The notes below the pieces were generated by a model that worked only from the letters and a program-made list of their open reading frames with translations, did not search any database and had not been told where the DNA came from. Source: an uncultured Bacteroidota bacterium (GTDB lineage: Bacteria > Bacteroidota > Bacteroidia > Bacteroidales > SZUA-534). From it: DNA of 9,468 nt. Of the stretch, positions 2,795 to 9,468 are shown piece by piece (the first letter of the stretch is position 1; each line of letters begins with the position of its first letter). Location of the stretch: positions 1-9,468 of the forward strand of contig CALABN010000274.1 of NCBI GenBank assembly GCA_937885735.1. Reading direction: 5' to 3'. Position numbers and translations under genes: made by a program.

Positions 2795-5269
2795 CTATTT
2801 CAAGAATCCGTATTCGTAAACTTTGGGTTCAATTTTGCGGGCCAATAACTTCAATGCATCACGCAAGGCTTTTACAAGTTCGTTGTAGTGTTCGTCGGAA
2901 CTGCTGTTGTTCATTTTGCCTTTATCGTTACGGCCTTGAAAATACTCCTTAATATCATATAACGAAGCATTTACATTGACATTTGGCTGTGCGTGGTAGT
3001 AGCGCCACAACTCGCGCCCTGCATCAAAAACCGCTGTCGCTTCTGCCGAAAATTGCATCTTCTCCGTTGGAATGAATGTTTCGGTTTGGGTGGCAAACAA
3101 ATCGGCTTGTGGCTGATTTTCAGGCTTTATCTTGCCATTCATAAAATCCACCATAAAGTGACTTTCAAACCTCTCCCTTGCCTCCACTTCACTTTCGGCA
3201 AATGGTATCCAATGGTTTACACCATATTGACTTTGTATGTTGTTGTTGAACAGAGTCCAGCACAAACAATTTGACTGAAATTCCTTGTCCGTTTTCCAAC
3301 CATCATTTGGATATAGAAATTGGTCACGGTCGTTTAGCCAAGTGGAATCAACAACGTGTCGAACAGAAATATAAATGGCACTTTCGATTAAATTCTCATT
3401 TGTCACAATCGTTCCACGAGGCGACGGTAATTGTTCTTTTGTTGTTTCAATTCTATTATAATTATTATGTTGAATATCGTTTGACGCACTATAATTAAAA
3501 CCTAAAATAACATCACCACCACGTATTCTGGTTTCAATTATCCAATCTGTCAAAGTTTTAAAGCCAACATTTGAATTTATTTCTTTCATACAAAAGAAAT
3601 CGCCATTATCGTTAAAGGCCTTAACCTCTATTCTTGTAAAGAAATCCTCTTTATCACAGTTCCAAATAAATAATCCAATAGGAAATTGACCTTTAACATT
3701 ATCAAATGTATATGAAGGAACCAAAAAAGCATTTTCTAATTTTGGTTTAAACACATTTCTAAAACTAATAAAATTAGGTGCCTGCAAATGTTTCAACGTT
3801 GAAAATTGAACCAATATACAACCTTGTATTTCTATATATATTCTAATAAAGAATTGGGCAAATAATTCCCTTCCAGCAATTCCTATTTTTCCAACATATT
3901 TTGAATAAGTCTTTTGTGTAACAGCAACATCTGTCTTATTTATTCCATTTCCACTCAATTGCTTCGCATTACCCGCCTCCGCATACGGTGGATTGATATA
4001 AATCACCAACTTTTTACGTTTATTTTCGTCATTTACAATCTTTTGCAATTCCACGGGCAACTTGCTGAAATCGTCGTTTAGGAAATCGAACTGGAAGACG
4101 TGGTTTTCCAAAAGATTGGCGCCATTGCCAATACGCTCCTTCATAACGTCGACGTCCTGTTGGTCGATGGTGCTTGCCCAAATATTGTATTTATTTGTCA
4201 ATCCGTTCAATAGGTTACCCGTACCCGCACAGCAGTCCCAAACGTAGTACTCGTCCTGCCAATCGGCGCCAAGCACGTCGGCAATGTACTGCTGGCTCTT
4301 TTCAACCCAAATCTGTGGCGTGAAATATGCGCCTTTGCGTTCCCTGACATCTTGTGGCACAAGAAGGTCCAAGCGCTCGACAATGTAATGCCAATAATCG
4401 TTTTGCGGTGGTCGCTTGTAGCGTTTCCAGAAATCGGTGTATTGCGCCAGTCCCTTGCTCTTGAATCCGAACGGAATCAGGAAATCGAGGCCCATAGCGT
4501 CGGTGCGTTTCAGCATATAAGGCTTGTCGGCCTGCGCATTGAACGTTATGAAGAAATTGGCGTCGATGGTGCGGTCGTCGGTGACGCAGGTTGTCCCGTT
4601 GTCGTCGATATTGAGTTCGGCAAGGAAGAAATCGCGGTCGTAGATGCTGTAGTTCTTCTTCAGTTTCTCCCAGTCGGCATCAATGTAAGGCATAACCATT
4701 GAGCGCCATTTTTGGTAGATGAATACAAAATTGTTCTTATCTATTTGAGTTGAAAGCAGATTCGCATTTTCATCAAGAATGAAGTTTTGCTTTACAAAGT
4801 TCTGCAGTTCGGTATGGTCGGCATCGAAATTGAAAGTGAAAACAGAATCGGCATCAATGTTTGCCTTGACGGATTCAATGCTCTTGTCGTCGACAGCCGA
4901 AGGCGTTTGCGTCCAATTGAAATCGTTAAGGTTGAAGATAGGCAGAATGTGATGATACTCCACAAATGCAATCTTCTCGTTGTCGAAACAGCCGATGAAT
5001 TTTGGCGGATTCAGGTTCTTTGCGTCCTGTCTGACAGTCACTAGCAGTTGCGTCAGCATACGGTAGATATCGGTAGGCTGGTTTTTCGCCTCCGCCCAAA
5101 GCAGATATTCATCGCCAAAGTCAATAATGCCATCGGTTGCAGATGTCTTGCGCTTGATTTTGACAGCAAAGTCGATGCGGTTGATAATGTCGGTGCAGTC
5201 GAATTTTGGGAACCAATCGGAAGCCACCTTCAGTTTGAGCGATTCCTCGCGAATATTGCCGTATGCCAT
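2795..5269 (-). CDS. Type IIG-like restriction-modification enzyme (N-terminal nuclease, N6-adenine methyltransferase, target recognition region)
   Basis: An 824-residue single-chain protein predicted to methylate adenine in a specific DNA site and to cut unmodified DNA. Near the N-terminus, D50-x9-E60-x-K62 (…WAEAKNQ) fits a PD-(D/E)xK nuclease core. The methyltransferase has motif X GAYFTP (313-318), motif I DCCAGTGN (345-352; SAM binding) and motif IV NPPY (426-429; catalytic, gamma-class order). The rest should hold the later motifs, the target recognition domain and a conserved C-terminal helical region ending KVYEYGFLK. No separate R, M or S gene is nearby, which supports the bifunctional reading. 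The start is set at MAYGNIREES (ATG 5267-5269); the frame stays open to 5437, but the extension crosses structured non-coding DNA and does not look like protein. Composition is mosaic: 3361-3960 (about residues 437-636) is about 29% G+C against about 55% in sampled motif I-side sequence. If the nuclease site is inactive it would be an orphan methyltransferase. Recognition site unknown. Confidence 0.85.
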   Translation of the reverse strand: MAYGNIREESLKLKVASDWFPKFDCTDIINRIDFAVKIKRKTSATDGIIDFGDEYLLWAEAKNQPTDIYRMLTQLLVTVRQDAKNLNPPKFIGCFDNEKIAFVEYHHILPIFNLNDFNWTQTPSAVDDKSIESVKANIDADSVFTFNFDADHTELQNFVKQNFILDENANLLSTQIDKNNFVFIYQKWRSMVMPYIDADWEKLKKNYSIYDRDFFLAELNIDDNGTTCVTDDRTIDANFFITFNAQADKPYMLKRTDAMGLDFLIPFGFKSKGLAQYTDFWKRYKRPPQNDYWHYIVERLDLLVPQDVRERKGAYFTPQIWVEKSQQYIADVLGADWQDEYYVWDCCAGTGNLLNGLTNKYNIWASTIDQQDVDVMKERIGNGANLLENHVFQFDFLNDDFSKLPVELQKIVNDENKRKKLVIYINPPYAEAGNAKQLSGNGINKTDVAVTQKTYSKYVGKIGIAGRELFAQFFIRIYIEIQGCILVQFSTLKHLQAPNFISFRNVFKPKLENAFLVPSYTFDNVKGQFPIGLFIWNCDKEDFFTRIEVKAFNDNGDFFCMKEINSNVGFKTLTDWIIETRIRGGDVILGFNYSASNDIQHNNYNRIETTKEQLPSPRGTIVTNENLIESAIYISVRHVVDSTWLNDRDQFLYPNDGWKTDKEFQSNCLCWTLFNNNIQSQYGVNHWIPFAESEVEARERFESHFMVDFMNGKIKPENQPQADLFATQTETFIPTEKMQFSAEATAVFDAGRELWRYYHAQPNVNVNASLYDIKEYFQGRNDKGKMNNSSSDEHYNELVKALRDALKLLARKIEPKVYEYGFLK

Positions 5270-5319
5270 TGTGAATGATAGTTTTATCAGATTGACTATC
5301 AGCCACGGAAAACGGCAAT

Positions 5320-5422
5320 AAAAAAGGTGCGAGACCTCTCTACTCACGCTCAACGGGAAGCCTGGAAAGAAAACCCGCCTAACCCCAATAGAAAGTTCGC
5401 ACCAAGTCGAACAAACGGGGTT
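5320..5422 (-). promoter_or_regulatory. Candidate leader attenuator upstream of the R-M gene
   Basis: Read on the minus strand, GGTGCGA (5403-5397) can pair with TCGCACC (5332-5326), which is followed at once by six Ts (5325-5320), as in an intrinsic terminator. The same GGTGCGA overlaps the hairpin GTTCG-8nt-CGAAC (5412-5395), itself enclosed by AACCCC/GGGGTT arms (5381-5386 and 5417-5422). The two folds cannot form together, which is the layout of a terminator/antiterminator switch. The element ends 50 bp before the R-M start codon. No ligand or trans-acting factor is recognised, and the long, partly unpaired terminator loop lowers confidence. Confidence 0.35.
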
Positions 5423-5517
5423 AAAAGCGAGCACCAACGGGACATTTCAGGTTGAGCGCAATTATTCCGATTTCAAAAGAAAATCAGTTTTCCAGGCTTT
5501 TTTTTCTTTGAGCGTGA
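5344..5517. repeat. 174-bp element bounded by a 21-bp interrupted inverted repeat
   Basis: TCACGCTCAA (5344-5353) and AAGCCTGGAAA (5358-5368) are matched exactly by TTTCCAGGCTT (5489-5499) and TTGAGCGTGA (5508-5517), with internal loops of 4 and 8 bases. An extra GTTGAGCG (5451-5458) can compete for CGCTCAAC (5347-5354), and CAACGGGA occurs twice (5351-5358, 5435-5442). It may be the base stem of a structured RNA or the ends of a small non-autonomous insertion; no flanking target duplication is visible. It lies in the 392-bp gap between the R-M and toxin genes. The AT-rich remainder, 5518-5595, holds nothing else I can support. Confidence 0.6.
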
Positions 5518-5661: not shown

Positions 5662-5934
5662 CTATTTAAACAATTCAGAATGTGTTCCTAAACGGACTAA
5701 TTTTATGGTGCTGTTATTTTCATCAATCCAAATCAAAAGGAAATCGTTTCCTATATGGCATTCCAAAGTTCCTTTGTAATTGCCTTTTAATGGATGAGGC
5801 AAATATTCCTTGTCAACAGTGCCATTTTCCTTCAACTGCGTCAGAACTGTCTTTAATGCAATAAGTTTGGCTTTGTCGTTGCAGTACTTCTTGAAGTCTT
5901 TTTTGAATTGTGACGTTTGCGTTAAAATCCACAT
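5662..5934 (-). CDS. YafQ-family type II toxin (RelE-like ribosome-dependent mRNA interferase)
   Basis: A 90-residue toxin of the RelE/YafQ superfamily, which enters the ribosomal A site and cleaves mRNA when its antitoxin is degraded. HPLKGNYKGTLECHIGNDF followed by RLGTHSELF matches the YafQ signature. His47, His60, Asp64, His85 and Phe89 line up with the functional residues of E. coli YafQ; Phe65 stands where YafQ has Trp. Length and the N-terminal helix-rich segment (about residues 7-36) are normal, so it looks intact. It starts 3 bp after the antitoxin stop (TGATTTATG on the minus strand), indicating co-translation in the usual antitoxin-first order. It is followed by a clear terminator. 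Its low G+C resembles the variable part of the R-M gene rather than the flanking core genes. Confidence 0.92.
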   Translation of the reverse strand: MWILTQTSQFKKDFKKYCNDKAKLIALKTVLTQLKENGTVDKEYLPHPLKGNYKGTLECHIGNDFLLIWIDENNSTIKLVRLGTHSELFK

Positions 5935-5937
5935 AAA

Positions 5938-6192
5938 TCACAACCTATTTATTTGTTCATTTAAGGCATCAAAGTCAAATTTCTCCAAATCATTGTTGTT
6001 TTGTGCTTCGCGAATAGCACTGACAGTTGCGTCGTTAGGTTCATTGAATGCTATTTTCATAAGTACATTCTCAACATAGTTATTGAGGCTTCTGTTGTCT
6101 TTTTTTGCCAACTCCTTAAGCCTTGCAATCAAATCCGACCTTAACCGAAATGCTGTAGCGACTTTATTGCTTTTGACTTCAAGTGCATCCAT
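5938..6192 (-). CDS. Ribbon-helix-helix antitoxin partner of the YafQ-like toxin
   Basis: An 84-residue protein, read from the ATG at 6190-6192 (MDALEVKSNK). Residues 10-45 (VATAFRLRSDLIARLKELAK, then NRSLNNYVENVL) fit a ribbon-helix-helix DNA-binding domain: one beta strand and two helices that bind DNA as a dimer. The acidic, probably flexible C-terminus (about 52-84, NNNDLEKFDFDALNEQ) would wrap and neutralise the toxin, as DinJ does for YafQ. Upstream in-frame residues to 6264 (MKFVLFCLQCVIQM…) are Cys/Phe-rich, unlike an antitoxin, and cross the promoter, so they are excluded. Autoregulation is expected for the family; an inverted repeat centred on the promoter fits this. Confidence 0.88.
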   Translation of the reverse strand: MDALEVKSNKVATAFRLRSDLIARLKELAKKDNRSLNNYVENVLMKIAFNEPNDATVSAIREAQNNNDLEKFDFDALNEQINRL

Positions 6193-6193
6193 A

Positions 6194-6236
6194 GTGTTAT
6201 TATTTTGAATACAAAAATATATCATTTGTATAACAC
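6194..6236. promoter_or_regulatory. Candidate autoregulatory operator of the toxin-antitoxin operon
   Basis: Perfect 7-bp inverted half-sites GTGTTAT (6194-6200) and ATAACAC (6230-6236) are separated by 29 bp and centred at 6215, inside the -7 element of the predicted promoter. Two ribbon-helix-helix dimers binding the half-sites would straddle the polymerase site. The similarity extends slightly on either side (TNGTGTTATNA). Whether the antitoxin binds here is inference. Confidence 0.4.
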
Positions 6237-6243
6237 ATTGCAA
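6212..6243 (-). promoter_or_regulatory. Bacteroidetes-type promoter for the toxin-antitoxin operon
   Basis: On the minus strand, TTGC (6243-6240) and TATTTTTG (6219-6212) are 20 bp apart, matching the Bacteroidetes -33 TTG / -7 TAnnTTTG consensus. Transcription would start near 6205, leaving a leader of about a dozen bases before the antitoxin ATG at 6192, which also supports that start. Confidence 0.6.
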
Positions 6244-6284
6244 GCAAAACAAGACAAATTTCAAACTATGGTAAGTTTTTGGTC

Positions 6285-6321
6285 ATTTAGGATTTAATTC
6301 ATTTAGGATGTAGGATTTGGC
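6285..6321 (+). repeat. ATTTAGG heptamers, left arm of locus C
   Basis: Reading plus: ATTTAGG, ATTTAATTC (9-mer), ATTTAGG, ATGTAGG, ATTTGGC. Bases 6288-6309 are identical to 2027-2048 of locus A. This arm runs toward the palindrome at 6334-6353 from the side opposite the main array. Unlike the other arrays it does not follow a gene, but lies upstream of the divergently placed antitoxin promoter. Confidence 0.75.
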
Positions 6322-6333
6322 ATTTAATAATCT

Positions 6334-6353
6334 GTCCCGATGACCATCGGGAC
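6334..6353. repeat. GTCCCGAT-GACC-ATCGGGAC palindrome of locus C
   Basis: Perfect 8-bp arms (6334-6341 and 6346-6353) enclose a 4-base loop. The core matches the palindrome at 2078-2101. Heptamer arrays approach it from both sides. Neither strand has a T-run after the hairpin, so it is not a standard intrinsic terminator, although it could still protect the 3' end of the triple-PII transcript. Confidence 0.8.
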
Positions 6354-6358
6354 AAAAT

Positions 6359-6473
6359 CCTAAACAGTAAATGTCAAATATGAAATTCCTAAATTCTAAT
6401 TCCAAAATATGAAAATCCCAATTCCTAATTCCTAAATATGGAAATCCTAATTCCTAAATACTAAATCCCAAAT
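6359..6473 (-). repeat. Long ATTTAGG heptamer array after the triple-PII gene, right arm of locus C
   Basis: On the minus strand the array starts on the last base of the TAA stop: ATTTGGG, ATTTAGT, ATTTAGG, AATTAGG, [ATTTCCAT], ATTTAGG, AATTAGG, AATTGGG, [ATTTTCAT], ATTTTGG, AATTAGA, ATTTAGG, [AATTTCAT], ATTTGAC, ATTTACT, GTTTAGG. The bracketed units are 8-mers ending in CAT that recur every three or four heptamers, so the array also has a higher-order period of about 29-36 bp. It leads into the palindrome at 6334-6353. There are no spacers and the units are too short for CRISPR. Confidence 0.85.
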
Positions 6474-7666
6474 TATATCGCCCTTACGTAAGTTGAAGGC
6501 GAATCGAGGACGTTAATCTTATCGACATTATCCTTCTCGATGTCAGATATTTGCAAAAGCGAATCAACAACGGCATCGGCCATATTTGCAGGAATGCTGA
6601 CAGCGCAACGCACGAGCAGTTTCTTGCTGTTCGACCCGTCGGCATTTGCCAAAAGGGTAATGCGCGACGTGGTGGCACCCGTAGCCCCGACATTGAGGCA
6701 GGTGGCACGCAGTTCATCGATGCGGTCCTCGTCAGATATGATTGACACCTCGCAGTTGTCGTACTTGATGTAGTTGTTGCCGTTAGGCACGTTGGTATCC
6801 AGGCGACGACGCCAACTGGTATCGCCCTTGAGCGAATCAATGGCGCATATAACCTGCTCCATTGAGGCGGAATATTTCTGTCCGCCAATTTTCAAATGAG
6901 TATCAACAAGCCCGACAGTGACAGGCGTCTGATAAATAAAGCCACGTCCTGGGCGGTCGAGTTTGGCGTGTTCGGCAAGCAGATATGCGATGCTGGCTGA
7001 ATCGTGTTCAGGCACAACAAGATGCACGACCTCCTTTTCCGCTGGGATGGTTACGCGAATCAATCCCAACTGGTCGCGAATGTCGTTCCCAGTGGCGTTT
7101 GTGAGCAAAGGCACGCAGATGCCGAGGTCGAGTGCATATTTTGCAAGTTTGTCGCCACTGCCATTTTCCGACAGGACACAAATCATATACGACAGTCGGT
7201 TGAGCAGTTGGACATCGCCACTTTCCATAAGATAGTCTTCGAGCACATTGAAGTTGATTTCTGGCGGATATTTGCTGAATTCCATCAAGTCCTGCGAGAA
7301 GACAGTTCCCTTGCCTGGAATGTTGAGTTCGGCCAAAGCCACAACAGCCTCAATCACGAGCCTTGCGTTCTCGCGAGGCACCGAAAAGCGGAAAATGGTG
7401 GCCGAAGTGCTGTTTAGTTTCACGGTATCGCCAGGAATGCCGAATGGCAACGGCTTTACAACCTCGCGGACATTCCTGCCCGACTCAATATAAACATCAA
7501 CTCCCAGCCTGATCAGGAAATCCTGCACAAGATGGCTGACCTCGTTGTTGACAATGCACGTAATCAAACTCACCCTATGTGGCGTGTACAGGCCCTTCGC
7601 CATTTGAGTCCGCCAGACAATGCGTGAAGGCGACACCTTGCCCGATTTTGCCTTAATGTCATTCAT
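6473..7666 (-). CDS. Protein of three tandem PII-like domains, partner of the DUF1538 transporter
   Basis: A 397-residue soluble protein with no signal or membrane segment. I read three ferredoxin-like PII repeats. Repeat 1 is about 32-130: VSLITCIVN strand, helix, GVDVYIESGRNVRE, then IFRFSVPRENARLVIEAVV and B-loop-like IPGKGTVF. Repeat 2 is about 158-254: SYMICVLSE, …VVHLVVPEHDSASIAYLL, RPGRGFIYQTPV. Repeat 3 is about 305-395: CEVSIISDEDRIDELRATC, …LLVRCAVSIPANMADAVVDSL. In repeat 3 the B-loop glycines are missing (IEKDNVDKINVLD). PII proteins are trimers that bind ATP/ADP and 2-oxoglutarate or other effectors at subunit interfaces and gate membrane transporters; one chain with three domains would be a pseudo-trimer (inference). 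The start at 7664-7666 overlaps the transporter stop by 8 bp (ATGAATGA), which favours it over Met22. PII-like genes beside DUF1538 are known; the covalent triple is the unusual point. The effector is unknown. Confidence 0.75.
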   Translation of the reverse strand: MNDIKAKSGKVSPSRIVWRTQMAKGLYTPHRVSLITCIVNNEVSHLVQDFLIRLGVDVYIESGRNVREVVKPLPFGIPGDTVKLNSTSATIFRFSVPRENARLVIEAVVALAELNIPGKGTVFSQDLMEFSKYPPEINFNVLEDYLMESGDVQLLNRLSYMICVLSENGSGDKLAKYALDLGICVPLLTNATGNDIRDQLGLIRVTIPAEKEVVHLVVPEHDSASIAYLLAEHAKLDRPGRGFIYQTPVTVGLVDTHLKIGGQKYSASMEQVICAIDSLKGDTSWRRRLDTNVPNGNNYIKYDNCEVSIISDEDRIDELRATCLNVGATGATTSRITLLANADGSNSKKLLVRCAVSIPANMADAVVDSLLQISDIEKDNVDKINVLDSPSTYVRAI

Positions 7667-9468
7667 TGTCCTTGCTCTTTAAATTATTGTGTTGTTTCAA
7701 TCTTGAATAGATGCCAAACAGAAGCACTATTATGATAGGCCAAGCCGATGCCATAGCCAGGATTCCGAATCCATCAGAAACGTTGAGCGCACCGCCGATT
7801 CCGAGCCCCATAGCCAAAACCAGAGGAACCGTTACAGGTCCAGTAGTCACGCCACCGCTATCCCAGGCAATGGACGCAAAGCCATCCTCGCTGAAAATGG
7901 TGAGTATCAGCAACAACGCGTAGGTAATGACAAGCATCCACGCAAGTGGCAAGCCAAAAAGGATGCGCGAAAGGCCGAGCACAATGCCCACACCGACGCC
8001 GATTGACACCATTTGCACTATCTGCTGGCGCTTTATGGCACCAATGGTGATGCCCTCCACAGTAATGCCCAAAGCGCTCAACGCTGGTTCAGCAAGCGAT
8101 GCGCCGTAGCCAAGGCCGAAGGCGAAAAGCAACACAAGCACGAGTCCAAGCGCCGACAATTGGCTGTCGAATAGCGGTTTTTCAGTAATTATCTGTGTAT
8201 AAGTATGTTGTTCCCTATCAAAATAAGCAGGATCAAATTCTACAGGCTTGACTTCGCCCTTTTCATAAAGGTTGAAAAACACCTTGCACTCGCCTTCAGG
8301 ACTGATTCCGCTGTAGAGCAATGTGGTGTCGAAGTTATTGATTACCACCTGCTCTACAAACTTCTCCTTGCTGGCAAACGCCTTTGGCAACTGCGAGCCG
8401 ACCTCACCGCCAAGCGAGCCAAGCCCAAGTTTGATACCCGAAGTGAGCAGAATCATGCCCACAAGCGTGAATGTCAAGCCCAAGGCCACCTCGTCCTTGT
8501 TGCGAATCTTCTCGCGCAGGATAACCGTGAGCACTACTATCAGCAAGAGAGTCAGAGGGATAACTGCACGCAAACCGCCTGTAGTCTCTTCCCTGATTGT
8601 CTGACTGAACGATGCAGTTGCTATTGTCTCGTTAGATATCTCAATATTTGACAATAAGTTACGTTCGTAATCGCTAGCCTTTTGCGCAAGCCATACCGAG
8701 AGAGGCTCGTTGCCAAGATACTTGTGGCAAAGCGAGTCGCTGTGGGCAATGGCGACAATGGCCTCGTCGAATGCCACCGAATCGTTGCCGAAAAGTGCAC
8801 GCCGTCCTGCCTCGCTACCGTGAGTAAATGCGTGTTCAGCAATCATATCAACGTTGCCGTTGAACAGTTGGGCAGAAACTTCCTTGTTTTCAGGATTAAA
8901 GAAGACATCCTCCGTAGTAGCCGTAGGAATCAATGTGTTAAGGTACAATCCCAAACTCAAGACAGCCACAACAGGCAAAGCCGACGCAAGCATAATGATG
9001 CCGAATCCGCCGTCGGAACCCGAGCCTGGATTGGCTGTGCGTGAAACGCCAATGCCCAAGGCCAATACAAGCGGGACCGTCACGGCTCCTGTGGTTACAA
9101 CACCGCAATCCCAAGCCAAGCCTATTATCTTTGAAAGATTATCATCGAAAGATGCATATAGCGTAAGCGCAAGGACAATGGGAATGACAAGGAAAATGAC
9201 TGGCTTGATGCGCCAATTATAGTAGAATCGGCACATACCTAGCGCCACAGCAATCCCGACACCAACGCCCACGGCATTAACAAGCATTCCCGAATATTTG
9301 TCGAGAATCATATATAACAATGGCGTGTCCCACGCGGTGATAGTTGCGCCTGCCGTCTTCAGCGAACTGATTGCTGGCTCGGCATACGTGGAGCCGAAAC
9401 CCAAGATGACGCCAAAAGCGCAAATGGCCACAATGCCCGCCTTTGCTGGCAATTTCACTCCAACACGC
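7659..9468 (-). CDS. DUF1538 family integral membrane protein, two-repeat fused form (5' end outside window)
   Basis: A polytopic membrane protein with two DUF1538 repeats. The signature AWDxGxVTTGxVTVPLVLA occurs at 115-133 and 531-549, and GFGSTYAEPA / GYGASLAEPA at 20-29 and 450-459, counted from the GTG at 9456-9458. That GTG is internal: the frame is open to the right edge (…RVGVKLPAKAG) and the first helices of repeat 1 are missing, so the gene starts beyond the window. In Halomonas a two-protein DUF1538 pair (UmpAB) has been reported as a Na+(Li+,K+)/H+ antiporter; here both halves are on one chain. Two hydrophilic inserts, about 178-295 and 352-430, interrupt the membrane segments and probably lie on one face; I recognise no domain in them. 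The stop overlaps the triple-PII start, so the two are co-translated. Predicted role is cation/proton exchange; ion specificity unknown. Confidence 0.85.
   Translation of the reverse strand, partial: RVGVKLPAKAGIVAICAFGVILGFGSTYAEPAISSLKTAGATITAWDTPLLYMILDKYSGMLVNAVGVGVGIAVALGMCRFYYNWRIKPVIFLVIPIVLALTLYASFDDNLSKIIGLAWDCGVVTTGAVTVPLVLALGIGVSRTANPGSGSDGGFGIIMLASALPVVAVLSLGLYLNTLIPTATTEDVFFNPENKEVSAQLFNGNVDMIAEHAFTHGSEAGRRALFGNDSVAFDEAIVAIAHSDSLCHKYLGNEPLSVWLAQKASDYERNLLSNIEISNETIATASFSQTIREETTGGLRAVIPLTLLLIVVLTVILREKIRNKDEVALGLTFTLVGMILLTSGIKLGLGSLGGEVGSQLPKAFASKEKFVEQVVINNFDTTLLYSGISPEGECKVFFNLYEKGEVKPVEFDPAYFDREQHTYTQIITEKPLFDSQLSALGLVLVLLFAFGLGYGASLAEPALSALGITVEGITIGAIKRQQIVQMVSIGVGVGIVLGLSRILFGLPLAWMLVITYALLLILTIFSEDGFASIAWDSGGVTTGPVTVPLVLAMGLGIGGALNVSDGFGILAMASAWPIIIVLLFGIYSRLKQHNNLKSKDNE

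Follow-up and report, generated by a model that had tools for sequence, protein, structure and literature searches.

The window, by which we mean the whole stretch of 9,468 nucleotides that was analysed, carries on its minus strand an open reading frame (ORF) at 6473..7666 of 397 codons (397 aa; ATG at 7666, stop at 6473-6475), which encodes three PII-like domains in one chain and is hereafter called the triple-PII gene. Next to it on the same strand lies a gene at 7659..9467, the 5' end of which is outside the window. Its product, a fused UmpA-UmpB-like membrane protein, matched DUF1538 in two stretches (PF07556, E = 1.4e-89), as the earlier note had supposed of this neighbour. Because the stop of the DUF1538 gene and the start of the triple-PII gene overlap by 8 nt (7659..7666, minus strand), translational coupling of the two is likely. 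Just downstream of the triple-PII gene, the intergenic stretch 6300-6475 contained A/T-rich near-repeats, variants of 'attcctaaatatggaaatcc'.

A search with the 397-aa protein returned 225 homologues at E ≤ 1e-3, and the matches listed (120 of 225) shared 55-98% identity, with at least 94% of the query aligned. A profile built from 11 triple proteins matched 345 proteins at E ≤ 1e-10 (120 listed), while a divergent orthologue of 380 aa (L065) matched 148 proteins at E ≤ 1e-4 (120 listed) when used as the query; the sets of 345 and 148 may overlap. Source labels among the listed L065 matches included Spirochaetia, Syntrophales, Sediminispirochaeta and Zixibacteria and, since these labels of metagenome-assembled genomes (MAGs) come from several phyla, the triple PII seems not to be confined to Bacteroidota. 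Some homologues already bear the JGI name 'nitrogen regulatory protein PII'. Within Bacteroidota the triple was rare: the family profile matched 11 of the 296 genomes drawn, two of which (G010 and G101) had the triple. A tblastn search of plasmids with P0156 gave no match, nor did a scan of viral contigs. One near-typical Bacteroidales triple PII (P0080) was filed under Candidatus Micrarchaeota, which is probably a binning error, and in one MAG (L017, 5959-7170) the gene was interrupted, giving ORFs of 81 and 290 aa, either through a sequencing error or as a pseudogene. The family is easily missed, as a PF00543 search at E ≤ 1e-3 failed to recover any triple protein from 14 triple-bearing genomes. 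The PF00543 search did detect single-domain PII genes in 11 of these 14 genomes; the other three (G010, G011 and G012; loci L025, L027 and L029) had no PF00543 match at E ≤ 1e-3, and because of this the triple may be their sole PII-type protein.

The earlier note had placed three consecutive PII-like domains in the chain, and this was borne out at nearly the boundaries set beforehand, with domain 1 at about residues 29-138 (7253..7582), domain 2 at 155-256 (6899..7204) and domain 3 at 300-397 (6476..6769), all on the minus strand. Compared by hhalign with a set of DUF1538-linked PIIs (SB), domains 1, 2 and 3 scored 50.9, 88.4 and 42.9, respectively. Controls consisted of 60 column shuffles per third, reversed profiles and ten slices of an alignment of the DUF1538 membrane protein. 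The shuffles topped out at 20.0, 18.4 and 18.4, the reversed profiles scored 13.3-16.1 and the slices reached at most 16.3; because all of these were far lower, the PII match of the thirds was not due to chance. Against a second DUF1538-linked set (SA) the scores were 47.6, 72.2 and 27.8, the last of which makes domain 3 the least secure of the three. Domains 1 and 2 recognised each other (47.9), and domain 3 was barely detectable from either (18.9 from domain 1, 16.2 from domain 2) and was linked to them via the outside set. The triple is tied to PII through the DUF1538-linked PIIs, which are themselves tied to canonical PII by Pfam and by PDB sequence search. When the domains were aligned by hhalign with four canonical PIIs encoded in these genomes, the signal was weak (probability 74.2, 1.6 and 1.0% for domains 1, 2 and 3). 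The DUF1538-linked single PIIs had a weak sequence link to SbtB (E 0.02-0.2).

The related expectation of three PF00543-like matches held in part: all thirds were recovered by profile and by predicted fold, but the window protein fell below the PF00543 gathering cut-off of 25 bits (16.2 bits; best stretch residues 306-336, itself under the cut-off). PF00543 matched 56 of 73 relatives at E ≤ 1 (best 7.6e-7), and of seven selected relatives that were inspected in more detail, six passed the cut-off as whole proteins; P0010 (29.7 bits) and P0120 (28.3 bits) were over it. No single stretch fell below E 0.1 for PF00543 in any of the seven, and their best stretch fell in domain 1 (three relatives) or domain 3 (four relatives). 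The whole L065 protein was also over the cut-off (45.5 bits), and its thirds, given alone, each had PF00543 as the top Pfam family at 24.8, 15.6 and 17.0 bits, all under 25 (E 2.8e-5, 0.022 and 0.0076). A phmmer search of PDB sequences with the window protein gave chance matches only (chitosanase, E 0.39), and therefore a profile was needed; the family profile A1 matched archaeal GlnK1 structures (7p52/2j9c) through domain 2 (residues 215-251, E 0.004).

In an AlphaFold2 model built from the deep alignment of 148 rows (pLDDT 89.2, pTM 0.89), the PII order of strands and helices that had been read into each third from the letters was indeed found three times, so that the fold β-α-β-β-α-β recurs along the predicted chain. 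Domain 1 was predicted to consist of β29-40, α44-54, β58-72, β80-97, α98-112 and β120-130; domain 2 of β155-165, α170-180, β187-194, the T-loop, β210-219, α220-233 and β242-253; and domain 3 of β300-311, α313-326, β331-340, β347-359, α360-373 and β383-393. An earlier model from 73 near relatives (pLDDT 76.1, pTM 0.80) likewise showed the fold three times, and in a Foldseek search with it unrelated chains led (sulfur oxygenase reductase and a designed cage). Foldseek with the 148-row model gave no match at E ≤ 1e-3 (best E 1.4e-3), and 45 of the 50 rows listed were PII or SbtB chains with a probability of 1.00. In a first VIA-align listing, solved PII-type chains fell on single domains within residues 27-138, 155-272 (three rows) and 297-397; in a second listing, single-domain rows fell on domains 1 and 3, with no row confined to domain 2. 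Most of the single-domain rows aligned 81-103 residues at 1.8-3.5 Å, and three rows did so at 4.2-4.7 Å. Several PII chains aligned from about residue 32 in domain 1 to residues 380-388 in domain 3, as reported by end residues only. Such spanning alignments would be expected if domain 3 sat beside domain 1, and we take them as a hint.

With a pTM of 0.89, the model positions the three domains confidently with respect to one another, which would fit closure of the chain into a pseudo-three-fold ring. Mean-field coevolution (Neff 127) gave plausible pairs within domains, and pairs between domains were too noisy to interpret. The chain might instead stay open, like beads on a string, with separate chains building a larger assembly through domain-wise trimerisation. 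This arrangement would suit the long linker between domains 2 and 3 (~43 residues), and the two-domain PIIs among the relatives, a single chain of which could not make up a closed trimer, must in any case assemble in some other way. We nevertheless regard it as quite unlikely given the single-chain pTM and the strong divergence of the domains (18.9 for domains 1 and 3, 16.2 for domains 2 and 3), which is like that of subunits spared self-association. That the protein is no PII at all, but a series of repeated ferredoxin-like domains of a generic type, similar to RND porter domains or to aldoxime dehydratase, is scarcely credible. Chains of these two kinds did lead VIA-align by Z (7.1; 6.4 in the second listing) because they extend over more than one domain, but their rmsd was high (4.1-7.4 Å), whereas most single-domain PII rows fitted at 1.8-3.5 Å and the sequence profiles point to PII; the likeness to RND efflux pumps and aldoxime dehydratase was rejected on these poor multi-domain fits.

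A single chain had been expected to let its sites and T-loops diverge, and so they have, with T-loops under very different constraint and a domain-3 B-loop that has Gly-x-Gly in only 4 of 148 relatives. Information content was computed over 148 triples (alignment A4, Neff 105), in which the protein mean was 2.11 bits. The domain-2 T-loop (residues 190-207; 7046..7099, minus strand) reached 3.23 bits and is a candidate output finger, compared with 1.63 bits for the T-loop of domain 1 and 0.97 bits for that of domain 3 (residues 336-349; 6620..6661, minus strand), which is hardly constrained: 13 of 384 windows of equal length scored lower. The best 18-residue stretch (195-212, 3.50 bits) was mostly domain-2 T-loop and extended five residues beyond it, and R197, K211 and E212 were kept in 148 of 148 rows. 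Conservation alone singles out no output finger, however, because the domain-2 B-loop (residues 235-245; 6932..6964, minus strand) matched the T-loop of its own domain at 3.29 bits. Between domains 1 and 2, the linker 139-154 had 0.81 bits, below the domain-3 T-loop. The linker between domains 2 and 3 (residues 257-299; 6770..6898, minus strand) contains a conserved helix, with D277, W285 and R286 invariant in the 148 rows. An N-terminal helix (residues 13-24; 7595..7630, minus strand) lies within a stretch conserved in the Bacteroidales-type subfamily, residues 10-28 having 3.91 bits in the Bacteroidales-type alignment A1 and a gap fraction of 0.50 across all triples (A4).

Canonical PII ligand residues include Thr29, Gln39, Lys58, Gly87, Lys90, Arg101 and Arg103, among others (PMC8395244). 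The canonical ATP/2-oxoglutarate side chains were not found in the triple: the Lys90 equivalent was K or R in 0 of 148 rows in domain 1 (T121 in the window protein) and in 0 of 148 in domain 2 (F243), and the equivalents of Gln39, Lys58 and the arginines were judged missing by eye only. DUF1538-linked single PIIs had I, L or V after the B-loop Gly in place of Lys90 (11 of 11), and the Arg101/Arg103 stretch was absent from them as read by eye. Because the canonical nucleotide-binding side chains are missing, canonical binding of ATP/2-oxoglutarate by the triple PII is probably not to be expected, judging by its residues. Gly-x-Gly was kept in the B-loops of domain 1 (residues 114-124; 7295..7327, minus strand; 134 of 148) and domain 2 (126 of 148), and this suggests that a site persists there, perhaps for a different ligand.

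The partner is best compared with UmpAB of Halomonas zhaodongensis, a DUF1538 pair reported to be a hetero-dimer and a Na+(Li+,K+)/H+ antiporter (PMC5484666, in the main text of which 'PII' occurs 0 times), and by this analogy the partner is a probable sodium/proton antiporter. It scored 174.5 and 132.9 bits, under the NCBIfam UmpA/UmpB equivalog cut-offs of 490 and 500 bits, with the window covering part of the gene; being below these cut-offs, its substrate may differ from that of UmpAB. Unlike UmpAB, the window partner has both halves in one chain, with an added spacer (102-122 aa) between them and an insert (76-83 aa, Bacteroidales type) in the second half, both of which the window's own gene carries.

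Of 33 genome loci, 31 had a DUF1538 ORF directly upstream of the triple, including L004 and L016 with a partial or split one, and in most loci it was 685-731 aa long; the two remaining loci have no testable upstream region, since the contig starts 185 bases ahead of the match (L002) or at the match itself (L010). Wherever a triple-linked DUF1538 ORF spans the junction (31 of 31, namely 30 from genome loci plus L065), the spacer measured 102-122 aa; it was 17-29 aa in each of the 9 fused DUF1538 ORFs that are not linked to a triple PII. The second-half insert was 76-83 aa long in the Bacteroidales-type partners (30 of 30 covering it) and 24 aa in L065. A rough reading of hydropathy and charge gave the L025 partner 14 membrane segments and a positive N-terminus, and on this hydropathy estimate both inserts are probably outside the cytoplasm. 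The transporter's added, putatively outer domains were present in 31 of 31 triple-linked genes covering the junction and in 0 of 9 fused genes beside single or double PIIs, a correlation with the triple PII that may reflect shared descent. Both inserts are long and soluble, and both are net acidic in the window; the second is neutral in L025. A tblastn search of plasmids with the window's DUF1538 protein gave no match.

PII genes also accompany DUF1538 outside the triple family. PF07556 was detected at E ≤ 1e-3 in 15 of 395 Bacteroidota genomes drawn and was over the cut-off in 13, the weak cases G230 and G306 being left out. All 13 had a PII directly downstream of DUF1538: the triple in two (G010, which was also among the genomes first found through their own triple, and G101), a two-domain fusion in four (G036, G126, G237 and G398), two separate genes in five (G118, G133, G185, G319 and G350) and one gene in two (G137 and G382). 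These PII genes were read from ORFs, and Pfam was run for G101, G133, G237, G126 and G010 only; the PII was over the PF00543 cut-off in the first four and under it for the G010 triple (L025), and the remaining assignments rest on alignment and tree. Outside Bacteroidota, seven of nine plasmid matches were opened, and the five annotated records all had a P-II gene adjoining DUF1538; the two unannotated records had a double PII downstream of DUF1538, as read by eye. Plasmids of Alphaproteobacteria carried a single PII with two DUF1538 genes, one of which is shortened in L105; in those of Clostridia, UmpAB was fused and the PII had two domains (L107, 224 aa, by length and annotation; L108 and L109 by eye). 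As Bacteroidota and plasmid loci both have it, DUF1538 with PII is a recurrent pair, with one to three PII domains per chain. Two-domain PIIs adjoined DUF1538 in L066-L069, L103, L106, L108, L109 and L114 (L069 being a split A/B pair); a chain with two PII domains is unable to close one trimer alone. The plasmid records label such proteins simply P-II family nitrogen regulator. In five Bacteroidota genomes (L070-L074), single PII-like genes of 122-131 aa directly followed an ORF of 1,044-1,047 aa.

An unrooted tree of 108 PII domains, including those of 26 triples chosen from the 148, was computed over 101 columns, with an unsettled bootstrap and some long branches. Domains 1, 2 and 3 of the 26 triples each formed one group (support 94/86, 96/94 and 100/99; recovered in 92, 96 and 100% of bootstrap trees, respectively), and the single and double PIIs formed a separate group (100/99). 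Because each domain groups with its counterparts, the triple is likely to have arisen once, each domain then keeping its identity. A stepwise history from one to two to three domains, which the gene arrangements had suggested, was not supported by the tree, in which domains 1, 2 and 3 and the single and double PIIs are separate groups.

Control of transporters by PII T-loops is established for GlnK-AmtB and SbtB-SbtA (PMC10710835). From what was computed here, namely three PII domains, the gene pairing, asymmetric conservation and the loss of canonical nucleotide side chains, we infer antiporter binding and control through the domain-2 T-loop. We consider it fairly probable that the protein is a covalent PII pseudo-trimer and most likely a dedicated cytoplasmic regulator of the co-translated DUF1538 antiporter. 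The three diverged domains would fold together like the subunits of a PII trimer, and the protein would be co-translated with the fused UmpA-UmpB-like cation/proton antiporter. The domain-2 T-loop (~190-212) could then bind to the antiporter's cytoplasmic face or plug it and, according to a ligand, hold the antiporter shut or adjust its activity. The ring would be completed by domains 1 and 3, whose ligand sites would not be equivalent. A more detailed version is offered tentatively: in an asymmetric single-chain PII of this kind, the domain-2 T-loop would be the output and the other domains sensor and scaffold, the ligand would be something other than ATP/2-oxoglutarate, the fusion would have let a three-fold regulator fit a transporter of two unequal halves, and the outer inserts may couple an external signal.

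A different role for the protein would be that of a permanent structural subunit, which would belong to the antiporter complex constitutively, sense nothing and have vestigial ligand sites. The loss of the Lys90 equivalents from domains 1 and 2 (K or R in 0 of 148 rows) is consistent with such a role, as are the near absence of Gly-x-Gly from domain 3 (4 of 148), the I, L or V after the B-loop Gly in the separate DUF1538-linked PIIs (11 of 11) and the tight gene pairing itself. The B-loop Gly-x-Gly kept in domains 1 (134 of 148) and 2 (126 of 148) argues for a kept site, and we think a purely structural part unlikely, if still worth keeping in mind. PII proteins have many targets, and one of these, such as a nitrogen enzyme or transcription, could be the true target here, with the DUF1538 linkage incidental. 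The linkage was however present in all 31 testable loci and in each of the 13 DUF1538 genomes sampled, and 11 of the 14 triple-bearing genomes searched also have single-domain PII genes, which makes another target very improbable.

The triple PII differs in several respects from known systems. GlnK/GlnB (PF00543) share with the triple PII the fold, the T- and B-loops and, for GlnK-AmtB, a gene paired with a transporter; they are homotrimers of ~112-aa chains, whereas the triple has three unequal domains in one chain and lacks the Lys90 equivalents in domains 1 and 2. SbtB likewise has a PII fold and controls a Na+-coupled transporter, SbtA (PMC10710835), but it and other PII-like proteins (PstA, CutA-type) are homotrimers, unlike the single-chain triple. 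SA1388, a NIF3-type protein with an inserted PII-like domain, has that domain within a longer chain, and its PII-like domains form trimeric lids (PMC1779786); there, one PII domain per chain comes together in a trimer of three chains, compared with three per chain here. The nearest relatives by profile are the DUF1538-linked single and double PIIs, which are also directly downstream of UmpA/UmpB-type genes but have one or two domains, not three, and several of which are annotated 'P-II family nitrogen regulator'. The idea of treating this as the first case of a non-trimeric transporter under PII control was dropped, as a PII-NrtBCD complex (with an ABC transporter) is in the PDB (8wm7); PII control of NrtABCD and UrtABCDE is also named in PMC10710835. 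A symmetry mismatch between PII and transporter is thus neither unique nor excluded here; the novelty would lie in a PII built from three different units. According to PMC8395244, the PII proteins described to date are homotrimeric. In the open-access literature searched, we found no triple PII, no work on PII with DUF1538 and no description of the control of DUF1538 antiporters, for which the triple PII is a likely regulator.

The three sites and three T-loops of a PII homotrimer share one sequence. Mixed PII trimers were reportedly made in vitro in a 1997 study to separate the role of one site or loop. A natural single-chain PII lets each site and loop be altered alone, so that site cooperativity and the number of T-loops needed on a transporter become directly testable.

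Two further loci lie in the window downstream of the triple-PII gene, both on the minus strand. An 880-aa ORF at 2795-5437 had no Pfam match at E ≤ 1e-3 and contains an NPPY-type stretch, which presumably points to N6-adenine DNA methylases; its product is possibly a restriction-modification enzyme. At 5662-6264, a 108-aa ORF with a sub-cut-off DUF6364 match is followed by a YafQ-type toxin (PF15738, E = 4.1e-28), and the two are likely to be a type II toxin-antitoxin pair.
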